NCBI GenBank assembly: GCA_947493035.1
Contig: CANLOW010000008.1
Location: 1 to 64,000 of the forward strand
DNA: 64,000 nucleotides
Source of the DNA: an uncultured Aquimarina sp.
Lineage (GTDB): Bacteria; Bacteroidota; Bacteroidia; Flavobacteriales; Flavobacteriaceae
Reading direction: 5' to 3'
This document shows positions 10,705 through 55,880 of the stretch, piece by piece. Numbering within the stretch: the stretch's first letter is position 1; every line of letters starts with the position of its first letter. The notes beneath the pieces were generated by a model that was not told the DNA's origin, ran no database searches, and saw only the letters and a program-made list of their open reading frames with translations. Position numbers and translations under genes: made by a program.

Positions 10705-10779
10705 CAGGAATGACGACTTAGTAAGGAAAGTTTCCAAAAAGCAATTTTTTCTATCAAAAAATACTTTCTATCTTCTACC
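10705..10779. repeat. direct repeat copy 1 flanking the toxin-antitoxin module
   Basis: Bases 10705-10741 match 11616-11652 at 35 of 37 positions (core GGAATGACG..CTTAG..AAGG). After a diverged 30-base spacer, each copy has the heptamer CTTCTAC at nearly the same distance (67 versus 68 bases). The copy runs into the last codons of the toxin gene. Confidence 0.75.
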
Positions 10780-11184
10780 TTTCACATAAGTCTCAGGTGT
10801 CATAATCACAAGTTCACTTTTCTTAAAGTCCTTAATATTTCGAGTAAGTATCGTAGTGATAGTATTTGTCTGAATAGCCGAAAAATTCTGTAAAGCATCT
10901 TCAAAATCTTTAAAGTCCGAATTTAGAGCATTTATTACTATTTCTTTATTCATTTCAATAATTGAAATAATACTTAATAGTTGATTAAGCTTGTTAATTA
11001 CGACTTCGTGCTTAGCAGTCTTTTTTAATAGGTAATAACTATTTGCAATAATTAATGGAGTAGTGTAGCCTAGTATTTTTTTTTGCTCACATAAACTAAA
11101 TACATTGGAAGCGAATTCGGAAAAGGGTTGTCTGTCGAAGAAAAAATCTAAAATGACATCTGTATCAATCAGTATATGATCCAT
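10768..11184 (-). CDS. PIN-domain toxin (VapC-like)
   Basis: The protein of 138 residues is a PIN-domain ribonuclease, the toxin of a VapBC-type pair. The N-terminus ILIDTDVILDFFFDRQPF carries the first catalytic acidic residues (Asp7/Asp9 region). A later acidic cluster, DFEDALQ (near residue 95), supplies the second set, and a TRNIKDF region follows. The start codon overlaps the antitoxin stop by one base (TAATG), which implies translational coupling. Its final codons (VKGRR) are written by one unit of the GTAGAAG heptamer found as an array on the other side of the module, so the repeat has become part of the coding sequence. Confidence 0.9.
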   Translation of the reverse strand: MDHILIDTDVILDFFFDRQPFSEFASNVFSLCEQKKILGYTTPLIIANSYYLLKKTAKHEVVINKLNQLLSIISIIEMNKEIVINALNSDFKDFEDALQNFSAIQTNTITTILTRNIKDFKKSELVIMTPETYVKGRR

Positions 11185-11426
11185 TATAGATATTTTTCAG
11201 ACAAACGTTTATCAATCTCTTCTTTGTAATCGAAATTTTTAGGAGCTTTAAAAGAGCCTTTTAAAGAATTGATTAATGAAGAATGTTTTTTCTCACTAGC
11301 ATCTGAAGTTAATTGCTTTAAATAGTTTTCGATAATGTCAGATAGGCTACGATTTTTTGTTTTAGCGTAGCTTTTGGCTTTTTCTATTATTGCTTGCTCT
11401 ATGGTAAGGGTCAATTTTGTATTCAT
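11184..11426 (-). CDS. antitoxin, DUF6364/RHH-like
   Basis: The protein has 80 residues. An N-terminal ribbon-helix-helix-like segment (TKLTLTIEQAIIEKAKSYAK, then RSLSDIIENYL) should dimerise and bind its own promoter. The charged C-terminal tail probably wraps the PIN toxin. The composition fits the DUF6364 antitoxins that precede PIN toxins. It comes first in the pair and overlaps the toxin by one base. No good -7 box is visible, but a strong bidirectional terminator (11464-11504) separates it from the kinase gene, so it needs its own promoter in the ~40 bases before the start. Confidence 0.85.
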   Translation of the reverse strand: MNTKLTLTIEQAIIEKAKSYAKTKNRSLSDIIENYLKQLTSDASEKKHSSLINSLKGSFKAPKNFDYKEEIDKRLSEKYL

Positions 11427-11463
11427 TACCTATTCTTTTAAATACTTTATGTAAATATAATAA

Positions 11464-11504
11464 AAAAAGCACGTGTTTTTATATTATAAGAACACGTGCT
11501 TTTT
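11464..11504. terminator. bidirectional terminator between kinase and antitoxin
   Basis: A perfect 14-bp inverted repeat, AAAAAGCACGTGTT with AACACGTGCTTTTT, has a 13-nt loop and A/T runs on both flanks. It should stop the histidine kinase transcript before it enters the toxin-antitoxin genes and the response regulator. Confidence 0.85.
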
Positions 11505-11601
11505 GTTTGAGTACATTTAGAACCTTAAAAAGCTGAAAAATCAATTATAATAGCAATTTTATTTATTGTGTAGGCACTGATTGCAAATCAGCGCTATCGG
11601 T

Positions 11602-11626
11602 GATCCCTGCCTTCGCAGGAATGACG
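11602..11626. repeat. REP-like palindrome (CCTGC CTTC GCAGG)
   Basis: The segment GATCCCTGCCTTCGCAGGAATGAC contains a 5-bp stem with a CTTC loop. Its right half is the start of direct repeat copy 2, and a related AAGGAATGACGA occurs at 51419-51430. Confidence 0.65.
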
Positions 11627-11691
11627 GCTTAGGAAGGAAAGTTTCCAAAAAGGTGTTTTTTAGTTAAGAATAAAGTATGTAAACTTCTACC
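11616..11691. repeat. direct repeat copy 2 flanking the toxin-antitoxin module
   Basis: This is the partner of 10705-10779: 35 of 37 identical bases, then a diverged spacer, then CTTCTAC. On this side the CTTCTAC unit has expanded into an eleven-copy array. The two copies enclose the toxin-antitoxin genes and their terminator. Confidence 0.75.
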
Positions 11692-11760
11692 TTCTACCTT
11701 CTACCTTCTACCTTCTACCTTCTACCTTCTACCTTCTACCTTCTACCTTCTACCTTCTAC
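11684..11760. repeat. heptanucleotide array, (CTTCTAC) x 11
   Basis: Eleven perfect, uninterrupted copies of the 7-bp unit CTTCTAC fill exactly 77 bases. They lie 35 bases past the stop codon of the histidine kinase. No spacer sequence exists, so this is not CRISPR. Perfect copies suggest recent expansion, and copy number probably varies among strains. Confidence 0.97.
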
Positions 11761-11762
11761 CT

Positions 11763-11790
11763 GACAACTCTCAACCGACAACTGACAACT
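11763..11790. repeat. second heptanucleotide array, (GACAACT) x 4
   Basis: Directly beside the CTTCTAC array are four 7-bp units: GACAACT, CTCAACC, GACAACT, GACAACT. The sequence is different but the period is the same. The array ends 6 bases before the kinase stop codon. Confidence 0.85.
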
Positions 11791-11795
11791 AAAGA

Positions 11796-13586
11796 TCATT
11801 TCCCAAGTACATTCAACTGCCAATGGGCACCATCATCATTATAATGCTTCACATTTCCATCCAATTGACGTGTTAATGAATTGATGATTTTCATACCTAG
11901 AGAATCTTTCATTTCCGCATTTTCGTCAAAGCCGATACCGTTATCCCAAATATGTAAGGCTAGACGTTTTTCAGGTAGTGAAGTAATTTCAATATTTAGA
12001 GAAGGATTTTCCATACCTTCATAAGCATATTTAAGGCAATTAATGATAATCTCATTAACGATCAAGGCTAGAGGGATCGCACTATCAATATTGACACTAA
12101 TGTTGTCATTGATGCTGATGTTAGGCTTGAAGTTTGCATTATAGGCATGAAATAAACCAAGGATCAATTCGGTGATGTAGTCTTTGATGTTGATACGAGT
12201 GTCAACTCCTTCTTGATATAATTTACGATGTACTAAGGATAAAGCTTCTACTCGTTGTTTACCAATAATGATGGCTTCTTGAGCAGGATGACCACTGAGT
12301 TTATTGCTTTGAAGGTTGAGTAAACTGGCTACCATTTGTAGGTTGTTTTTTACTCTATGGTTAAGCTCTCGTAATAACCATGCCTTTTCTTGCTCTCGTT
12401 TAGAGATTTCTTCTTTTTGTTGGGCAAGAATGTTGTTAGCTTTTCGTACTTTTCTTCGACTAAAAAATAATAAACTAGCCAATAATGCAACAGACCCTAG
12501 TCCTAGTGCTAAATAAATAATTCGCTTTTGTCTAGCATCATTTTCTTGGTTTAGAATCCCTATTTGAGTTTCCCTCTTATCAATTTCATAGCCCGCTTTT
12601 AGTTGTTCAATTTTTCGAACATTATCTTTATTGACAAGGCTATCTTGGTAGATTTGAAATTGTTTTTGGTGATGTAGGGCTTTTTTATAGTCTTTCTGTT
12701 CTGTGTAGAATTCTGAAAGTAATTGGTTAAAGTCTCTGATTTGTTCTTTTAGTCCGTCTTGCATGGCAAGGTTTAGGGCTAGTATATATTTCTTTTCAGC
12801 TTGTTTGTATTCTTTCCTTTTTTGGTGGATTTTTGCTAGCTCTGATGTATATATAGAAATTGAATATTTATCGAGAAACGGTTCAAGTATTCTTATAGAG
12901 TATTTTAGATTTTTTTCTGCGGAGTCTAGTTTTTGTATTTCATTAAATATCATACCAAGGTTTCCATAAGAATAGCTTCTTAGTCTTAGATGATCTTCAT
13001 TTGTTAGCTTGTTTTTTGATATTGCTAACCTAAAATTTACTATAGCACTATCAATTGACCCTGATTTACGATAAATTTCTGCTAAATTGTTTATTATGAT
13101 TAATTTTGAAAACTTTGATAATGAGGAATCAAAGTTTTTAATAGATACTTTGAGGTGTTTCAGAGCATTCTTGTATTGTTCTAGATTTGCATAACAAATT
13201 CCTATTTTTTCATTTGCAATAGAAATTCCTGCTTGATTATTTAGGTTTTCAAATATTTTTAGTGCTTGCAATGAAGCTGCTAGAGAATTTTCAGTTTCAC
13301 CTTTTTCTCTGTGTATTTCACTAATTGTTAAATATGAATCAGCTTGTAATAAGGGGGCCTTTAATTTTTTGCCATACTTTAAAGACTTTTTTGCAAATTT
13401 AAGAGCTTTGTTAGTATCTGTTTCATATTGGGACAGAGCATATAAAACTTCAAATTTTTCCTTATCTGAAATATGATTAAAATTTTCATAACAAAGATAT
13501 AAACTATCTAAATTTACTCTTCTTGATGTTGCTTGGCAGAAACAAAAAGAAGAGTAAAATAGTAGTATTGATATAATTATTTTCAA
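11796..13586 (-). CDS. TPR sensor histidine kinase (HisKA_2 type)
   Basis: The kinase has 596 residues: signal peptide (~1-18), about seven TPR-like helical repeats (~30-330, with recurring A..K.L..S...), a coiled coil, one membrane span (YLALGLGSVALLASLLFF), then a cytoplasmic kinase core. The HisKA_2 box is RELNHRVKNNLQM, with the phospho-accepting His in NHR. The ATPase part shows N-box IIINCLKYAYE and G-box WDNGIGFDE. Periplasmic TPRs imply protein or peptide sensing. The natural partner is a LytTR regulator, most likely the one at 9541-10311. It follows the 13593-14117 gene by 6 bases. Confidence 0.93.
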   Translation of the reverse strand: MKIIISILLFYSSFCFCQATSRRVNLDSLYLCYENFNHISDKEKFEVLYALSQYETDTNKALKFAKKSLKYGKKLKAPLLQADSYLTISEIHREKGETENSLAASLQALKIFENLNNQAGISIANEKIGICYANLEQYKNALKHLKVSIKNFDSSLSKFSKLIIINNLAEIYRKSGSIDSAIVNFRLAISKNKLTNEDHLRLRSYSYGNLGMIFNEIQKLDSAEKNLKYSIRILEPFLDKYSISIYTSELAKIHQKRKEYKQAEKKYILALNLAMQDGLKEQIRDFNQLLSEFYTEQKDYKKALHHQKQFQIYQDSLVNKDNVRKIEQLKAGYEIDKRETQIGILNQENDARQKRIIYLALGLGSVALLASLLFFSRRKVRKANNILAQQKEEISKREQEKAWLLRELNHRVKNNLQMVASLLNLQSNKLSGHPAQEAIIIGKQRVEALSLVHRKLYQEGVDTRINIKDYITELILGLFHAYNANFKPNISINDNISVNIDSAIPLALIVNEIIINCLKYAYEGMENPSLNIEITSLPEKRLALHIWDNGIGFDENAEMKDSLGMKIINSLTRQLDGNVKHYNDDGAHWQLNVLGK

Positions 13587-18403: not shown

Positions 18404-18430
18404 CGTCCACGTTTATTTAACATGTTGTTT

Positions 18431-18542
18431 GTTATCAAGAAAGGTTTAGGGAGTAGAACCAATAAGACCTTAGCAACCCTCTAATTTTAGTGATAAAATA
18501 GAGAAGGTGCTACATTCTACCACATTAATGTGGATAGATAAC
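18431..18542 (+). promoter_or_regulatory. SAM riboswitch (SAM-I family)
   Basis: The segment shows the S-box core: P1 strands GTTATC (18431-18436) and GATAAC (18537-18542), the AAGAAAGG...AGGGAG region, the GACCTTAGCAACCC segment and the AAGGTGCTACATTC segment. SAM binding should lower expression of metX and the genes behind it. A perfect 7-bp ATTTCTT/AAGAAAT hairpin and a TCGTG/CACGA hairpin lie between the aptamer and the start codon and may form the expression platform; no T-run terminator is visible, so control may be at translation. Confidence 0.92.
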
Positions 18543-18622
18543 GAAAAGATTTCTTTTTGAAGAAATTGACTTCTCTCGTGTTGCACGATTCTTGATACAA
18601 ACACTTAACGTAAAAAAGAATT

Positions 18623-19606: not shown

Positions 19607-19673
19607 CAAGCAGATTTTGCTTTTGTAAGCTTGGGCTTTATGGACCTATAGCAATGAATAAGTAAATTAAAAA

Positions 19674-19722
19674 AGCCTACAGCCTATAGCTTAAAGCCTA
19701 TAGCGCGAGGCAATAAGCCGAG
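19674..19722. repeat. degenerate heptanucleotide array (AGCCTAT-like, 7 units)
   Basis: Read in steps of seven: AGCCTAC, AGCCTAT, AGCTTAA, AGCCTAT, AGCGCGA, GGCAATA, AGCCGAG. Two units are identical and most others keep AGC at the start. It lies between metX and osmC, ending 6 bases before the osmC start codon, so it is inside the operon mRNA. Confidence 0.65.
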
Positions 19723-47762: not shown

Positions 47763-47770
47763 ACAAAATT
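47763..47770 (-). promoter_or_regulatory. -7 promoter box of ribF
   Basis: On the minus strand TAATTTTG fits TAnnTTTG, 16 bases before the TTG start. A degenerate heptamer array lies just upstream (47768-47809). Confidence 0.45.
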
Positions 47771-47809
47771 ACAATTCTCAATAGTTAGTACAAAGTATTC
47801 AGTTAATAG
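47768..47809. repeat. degenerate 7-bp periodic repeat upstream of ribF
   Basis: In steps of seven: TTACAAT, TCTCAAT, AGTTAGT, ACAAAGT, ATTCAGT, TAATAGT. The first two end AAT and the other four end AGT. The array overlaps the ribF promoter region and fits the heptameric pattern seen at other sites. Confidence 0.45.
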
Positions 47810-47915
47810 TATGACTAACTTTTTCTAATGAAAACTTAAAGAAGCTTTTTAGATCATCATAATGTAAAAGTATTCGATTTGCTATAACTTGTTATAAAAG
47901 GTTACTCTATTAGCC

Positions 47916-55643: not shown

Positions 55644-55724
55644 AATCTTGAGTTTTAGTGAGACTTTGTTTCATTTATTGAAACCGAACACTATAACGTT
55701 TTCAAAGAGCGTGCCAAAATTTTT

Positions 55725-55752
55725 AGAATACAGAGTATAAAGTATTAACTAG
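55725..55752. repeat. degenerate 7-bp periodic repeat (AGAATAC-like)
   Basis: In steps of seven: AGAATAC, AGAGTAT, AAAGTAT, TAACTAG. Short and degenerate, but it lies in the same 237-base gap as the clearer array at 55837. Confidence 0.4.
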
Positions 55753-55836: not shown

Positions 55837-55878
55837 TTAATACTCATTACTGAGTGCTTTATACTGAGGACTCAGGCT
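55837..55878. repeat. degenerate 7-bp periodic repeat after the photolyase gene
   Basis: In steps of seven: TTAATAC, TCATTAC, TGAGTGC, TTTATAC, TGAGGAC, TCAGGCT. Five of the six end in C and begin with T. The array lies 2 bases past the photolyase stop codon, downstream of the gene, as the heptamer array does at the histidine kinase. Confidence 0.55.
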
Positions 55879-55880
55879 AC

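Follow-up and report, generated by a model that had tools for sequence, protein, structure and literature searches.

Why certain bacterial repeats have a unit of seven bases, and why they lie beside stop codons, is an old question. It is raised again by a locus in an uncultured Aquimarina sp., where the window, the whole stretch of 64,000 nucleotides that was analysed, contains a block of heptamers directly behind a histidine kinase gene. The parts of the locus are as follows.

11684..11762, minus strand: perfect heptamer array, (CTTCTAC)x11.3 as read on the plus strand (TRF 100% match, score 158; lag-7 run)
11763..11790, minus strand: adjoining heptads GACAACT CTCAACC GACAACT GACAACT (from the sequence; heptad identity 0.79, 0/500 shuffles)
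11796..13586, minus strand: TPR-HisKA_2 histidine kinase with the tract at its 3' end (ORF; Pfam HisKA_2 1.7e-21, TPR_12 9.1e-17)

An earlier note on this DNA had described eleven perfect copies of CTTCTAC followed by four of GACAACT, with the kinase stop codon close by. The first array is indeed perfect, with 11.3 copies in 79 bp that read GTAGAAG on the coding (minus) strand of the kinase, and is the sole perfect period-7 run in the 64-kb window at the threshold used. The second consists of three exact units and one variant (CTCAACC), which read AGTTGTC AGTTGTC GGTTGAG AGTTGTC on the coding strand. The block runs to 11790 and the stop codon, TGA on the minus strand, was found where it had been expected, at 11796-11798. 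On the coding strand it is followed by TCTTTAGTTGTCAGTTGTCGGTTGAGAGTTGTC and then by AGGTAGA repeats with the register uninterrupted, both units standing in one unbroken 7-nt register (AGTTGTC|AGGTAGA) as a single period-7 tract at 11682-11792 that begins 3 nt past the stop. The locus thus has the properties of a heptanucleotide SSR or STRR, i.e. head-to-tail units of 7 nt beyond chance and mainly in intergenic DNA. The C-terminus of the kinase ends like that of a homologue with 65% identity, and the array probably has no coding role. The RNA of the array is no more stably folded than shuffled sequence (z +1.07), it lacks an inverted partner, and the stable stem and U run of an intrinsic terminator were not found in it. 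Nor is the array placed in a promoter or coding region, as a phase-variable contingency SSR would be: it lies on the 3' side of the kinase, and some 260 bp containing hairpins separate it from the next gene. The longest G run in the GTAGAAG repeats is two, short of the G-tracts of at least three that a G-quadruplex needs.

Four further sites with the same period had been claimed in the window, at 19674, 47768, 55725 and 55837. These correspond to the following features, all listed without strand.

19672..19704: heptad tract AGCCTAC AGCCTAT AGCTTAA AGCCTAT (AGCCTAY heptads, 0/500 shuffles as high)
47786..47815: weak heptads AGTACAA AGTATTC AGTTAAT AGTATGA (marginal, P 0.046; largely kept in the sister species)
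55722..55745: degenerate heptads AGAATAC AGAGTAT AAAGTAT (P 0.004)
55837..55880: degenerate heptads, AGT/ACT every 7 nt (0/500 shuffles)

The array at 19674 is clear and the degenerate ones at 55725 and 55837 exceed shuffled sequence, whereas that at 47768 is marginal; the P values for all four are optimistic because the sites had been picked in the earlier note. A SAM riboswitch is also present in the window at 18429-18544 (Rfam RF00162, 71.7 bits). Sampling of the genome as stretches, amounting to about a quarter of it, showed that the enrichment at lag 7 is real, is intergenic and exceeds both shuffled and coding DNA, and that different units do have the period of 7 in common. Seven intergenic period-7 arrays were found in 464 kb, as against 0.9 in dinucleotide shuffles, with non-7 periods near background except for 14 (twice 7), and a single one turned up in 400 kb of coding DNA. 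A scorer tolerating degenerate units detected 23 period-7 tracts in 864 kb (~97 kb intergenic) and between 0 and 4 at any other period between 5 and 12. A second array, (CTTCTAC)9, was located on the same contig at about 107985-108051, after a different gene and with a head of the GACAACT/GATAACT/CTCAACC kind. The sister species yielded 8 tracts in 15 kb, all of period 7, whereas five other genomes of the genus yielded 3 period-7 tracts in 38 kb, which is not distinct from other periods; richness in such tracts therefore characterises one lineage inside the genus. Inverted repeats with heptad-periodic arms span entire intergenic regions of the window genome (L207:13911-13998, L208:17587-17661, L200:9186-9256 and L009:3867-3949) and may form long imperfect hairpins.

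From the shared period the earlier note had drawn a copying mechanism that is blind to sequence and fixed at 7 bp. The latter is too strong, since arrays with an AAGG core in 198 Bacteroidota genomes had a period of 7 in 24 genomes but of 8 in 13. Octamer arrays were seen in the Bacteroidota genomes G413, G491, G535 and G541 (AAGGGACA, AAGGAGAC, AAGGGAAT), so that the length of the unit may depend on the lineage. Blindness to sequence was borne out in so far as neither unit is commoner in the host family than its reversed control (CTTCTAC 1/301 versus about 6, GACAACT 4/301 versus about 5), but not in that one unit recurs at many loci per genome and placement is strongly dependent on which strand is the G-rich one.

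The history of the site can be followed in a sister species, Aquimarina sp. 745 (G364), which shares synteny with the window and, along most of it, roughly 74-87% DNA identity. The sister kinase, about 79% identical at the DNA level, ends in an orthologous array with an identical junction, CTTCTACCT|GACAACTC, and at least 12 copies are present on one side before the assembly breaks inside the array. Since array and junction are common to two species whose kinase DNA has diverged this far, the site is old and has been kept homogeneous, and as the array predates the species split yet is perfect in both, continual homogenisation is implied. The claim that perfect copies imply recent expansion is accordingly not supported. 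The adjoining heptads of the sister are one 7-bp unit shorter than those of the window, and this one difference, from a single two-species comparison, is a change of length by a whole unit between relatives. At 19674 the AGCCTAY heptads of the window have AGCTGGT heptads as their counterpart in the sister, with the register kept between the species and RGC retained; the 7-nt spacing has here outlasted a change of unit, with loss and independent regrowth as a possible alternative history. Register, homogenisation, the one-unit change and the replacement of a unit are all direct observations. Gap lengths in the window-sister alignments showed no excess of 7, most intergenic DNA there failing to align. 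A more distant kinase homologue (L030, 65% protein identity) has only degenerate AGTTGTT heptads past its stop and no GTAGAAG array.

The sister assembly and several MAG contigs stop inside arrays of this kind, as might be expected if the focal array were an artefact of assembly, but at 79 bp it is below short read length and is bridged in the window contig, and its junction recurs in an independent assembly of another species; an artefact is extremely improbable. Contigs often end inside heptamer arrays, examples being G358 (PWJC Bacteroidales MAG) and C17 and C29 of G364, so that array numbers and lengths in such drafts are underestimates.

Where the unit came from may be indicated by the neighbouring genes, and three features lie downstream of the array.

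10756..10783, minus strand: end of the PIN-toxin gene, ..AAA GGT AGA AGA TAG AAAGTA, with two degenerate heptamer units
11456..11504, no strand listed: hairpin AAAAGCACGTG...CACGTGCTTTT followed by T/A runs (fold z -5.85)
11560..11683, minus strand: tail behind the array, containing the REP-like palindromes CGTCATTCCTGCGAAGGCAGGGATCACC and GCGCTGATTTGCAATCAGTGC (fold z -3.39)

The hairpin is likely to be an intrinsic terminator. The kinase is separated by a DUF6364-PIN pair from a LytTR response regulator, and the kinase and its regulator are adjacent in other members of the genus (L035 and L037). This toxin-antitoxin pair (window 10768-11426) is 87% identical to that of the sister while its flanks are 74-80% identical, which suggests later transfer or insertion of the cassette. 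The 60-90 bp past the PIN gene are homologous to the 60-90 bp past the kinase array in both species. The 3' end of the sister PIN gene contains GGTAGAA about five times, reading GGT AGA AGG TAG and then further units. Judged from these sequences, the local seed may be the 3' end of the PIN gene, whose last codons in the window, GGT AGA AGA TAG, are already the heptamer, and the kinase heptamer would then derive from a duplication of that end, made when the cassette was inserted or later. REP-like palindromes (of the CGTCATTCC..GGAATGACG type) also occur about 150 bp or less from several heptad tracts, with sites at 11590-11622 of the window, at about 4378 of L009 and at 3842-3920 of L011.

The homologous tails in two species, the position of the cassette between genes that adjoin in relatives and the like head of the second CTTCTAC array behind another gene could all be explained if the array had been spread by a dispersed element, being co-duplicated with the REP-like tail or the toxin-antitoxin cassette. 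However, the two copies of the tail sequence behind the PIN gene and the kinase array are the only ones found in the genome, the second CTTCTAC array does not have it and the arrays of other phyla, among the matches listed, have unrelated flanks, making spread by such an element rather unlikely.

A pattern scan of GTDB genomes for (CTTCTAC)x4, in which position was no selection criterion, returned at least 114 stretches, and the matches listed come from Bacteroidota, Cyanobacteria, Desulfobacterota, Campylobacterota, Acidobacteria, Chloroflexi, Bacillota and others. Among these listed matches, 42 of the 64 arrays whose upstream gene runs in the direction of GTAGAAG were within 30 nt of its stop codon, as were 2/38 in antisense (Fisher 4e-10), 25 sense arrays and 1 antisense array fell 1-30 nt past the stop, and with one array per genome the figures were 18.5/29.5 and 1.5/16.9. 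In convergent gene pairs, again among the matches listed, 17 of 19 arrays were nearer the gene with GTAGAAG in sense, so array orientation follows the gene. No preference was apparent for antisense GTAGAAG before start codons (5/28 versus 5/42, matches listed). A phage element was considered and rejected: of 2.9 million viral contigs just 3 contain (CTTCTAC)x3, compared with 9 stretches for the reversed unit.

The rule is not confined to this unit. Other AAGG-core heptads in the 198 Bacteroidota genomes were near stops in sense in 11/14 cases, a count that includes the window array, versus 1/9 (within 12 and 30 nt respectively). Where tracts were detected purely by their periodicity, in stretches picked regardless of repeats, 26/40 began within 12 nt of a stop with the G-rich strand in sense, versus 5/38 (0/2000 random placements), although 14 of the 26 are from one genome, G380. 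The window genome alone had 7 of 10 periodicity tracts anchored at stops (P 0.0035); in G369 taken alone unbiased tracts were not significantly anchored (1/6, P 0.37), and in the five other genomes of the genus 0/3 tracts were. An excess of G over C in sense characterised 29/34 near-stop tracts and 11/49 more distant ones. Anchoring and the strand rule are thus observed directly, genes being taken as long ORFs and not gene-finder calls, so that some stop-to-tract distances may be wrong, and the thresholds (12 and 30 nt, score 12) having been set while viewing the data, with the sign of the effect equal in the main sets. Lag-7 profiles by zone over all genes do not reveal the anchoring, which is too diluted there, and tracts must be scored individually. 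A Desulfosarcina sample had no heptad excess although one long array was present. General purine enrichment past stops was rejected as the cause of placement, being only slight in random post-stop DNA. In G380 (L336-L355), also of the Bacteroidota, 32 kb of intergenic DNA yielded 32 degenerate heptad tracts, compared with 1-2 for every other period; the tracts of this genome start at the stop codon and have variable units, e.g. TAAGGNN and TAAGTNN.

One reading of the placement appeals to the geometry of the seed alone, in that a heptamer containing a stop and straddling the stop of a gene expands harmlessly, with no effect of transcription needed. GTAGAAG, AAGGTGA, AAGGTAA and TAAGGNN each contain a sense stop, 16 or 17 of the 64 GTAGAAG cases among the matches listed have an ORF that terminates within the array, and the sister PIN gene, running from its own stop into more units, has exactly this pattern. 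Sense stops are also commoner than in base shuffles (0.67 per heptad versus 0.56), but the excess is small, and units without them (AAGGGAA, AAGGTTC, TATCAGG) are anchored too. The asymmetry of 25 to 1 among the matches listed holds 1-30 nt past the stop, where either orientation would be harmless. Geometry alone is a possible explanation, but the odds are against it.

Alternatively the arrays might be a selected 3'-UTR element, whether a protein-binding site, an all-frame stop cassette, a transcription terminator or an mRNA-stability tract. Position and strand rules common to several phyla, a single unit at many loci within some genomes, the tracts in inverted pairs with heptad arms and the kept register and RGC at 19674 are consistent with selection. 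Set against these are the poor fold and missing inverted partner of the focal array, which has separate hairpins downstream, the rarity of both units in the host family and the 65% identical kinase homologue that has no GTAGAAG array, and a selected element is unlikely.

The reading preferred here, with a probability of about 0.6, is that the locus is an intergenic heptad repeat which starts at the kinase stop and is maintained as replication slippage or unequal exchange adds and removes units 7 bp at a time, with slippage inferred as the copying step. The stretch past a stop would be transcribed but free of ribosomes, so that G-rich nascent RNA could re-anneal as an R-loop and leave single-stranded DNA favouring slippage, and expansion there would spare the protein. 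Transcription with such hypothetical R-loops is the most likely account of strand and position; it predicts nothing specific about seven. This reading is favoured by the confinement of the period-7 excess to intergenic DNA, the orthologous array with its one-unit difference, the replacement of the unit at 19674, the ends of the PIN genes and the placement at stops. It is counted against by the five other genomes of the genus, which have no clear excess and no anchoring although the same polymerases are expected in them, by the result for G369, and by the near-stop tracts themselves, 7 of 34 of which lack a sense stop codon while some units have hardly any G skew. A wider generalisation is put forward tentatively and is doubtful as yet: stop codons may be general sites in bacteria for the birth or retention of in-register heptad tracts of any unit, with the G-rich strand as the coding strand and the tract starting at the stop, which would implicate a process tied to transcription (naked nascent RNA, R-loops) or a function in the 3'-UTR common to such tracts and not polymerase slippage alone.

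The focal array belongs to a known class of intergenic heptanucleotide repeats. The STRR of heterocystous cyanobacteria have a heptanucleotide period and are intergenic. The focal array shares both features with them but differs in its units and lineage. Heptanucleotide repeats of Calothrix are cited in PMC4692102. According to Mrazek 2007, as cited in PMC4679880 and PMC4692102, heptanucleotides outnumber every other class of long SSR in most genomes, and their abundance is attributed to the contact length of the polymerase. As far as those citations go, the present tracts resemble such SSRs in unit length, intergenic position, scattered species distribution and the proposal of polymerase slippage, and differ in having a two-species trace (a homogenised array, a one-unit change and an in-register unit replacement) and in a phylum that also has octamers.

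The earlier note knew of no described flavobacterial equivalent, but MacGregor 2015 (PMC4679880) reported long TAACTGA arrays and other heptamers in the flavobacteria Gramella forsetii and Aequorivita sublithincola. The TAACTGA repeats of Beggiatoaceae, Cyanobacteria and Bacteroidetes described there are likewise intergenic, gene-oriented heptamers accompanied by other heptamers, with 7-nt indels between strains. In Beggiatoaceae, however, they are mostly before start codons, whereas GTAGAAG is past stop codons, and with its units GTAGAAG/AGTTGTC and its position after a stop the focal array is not of the TAACTGA class. Closer in placement are the heptamers GGGAATC and GGGGA(T/C)T of Xanthomonas and Nostoc (Rehm 2015, PMC4692102), which lie on the sense strand within 50 bp of stops and are interpreted as G-quadruplexes. 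The focal array, in sense and no more than 50 bp past its stop, is placed in the same way, and in both the G-rich strand is directed away from the closest gene and some inverted pairs occur; GTAGAAG arrays lack a matching antisense preference before starts among the matches listed, and without GGG tracts they are not expected to form canonical G-quadruplexes. To these systems the present analysis adds the extension of the stop rule to a heptamer without G-tracts of three, to many phyla and to degenerate tracts, which suggests that G-quadruplexes are not its cause. It also adds one orthologous pair with turnover in register, in which the spacing can survive loss of the unit sequence, and persistence of spacing together with the placement rule makes the cause testable in a laboratory strain.
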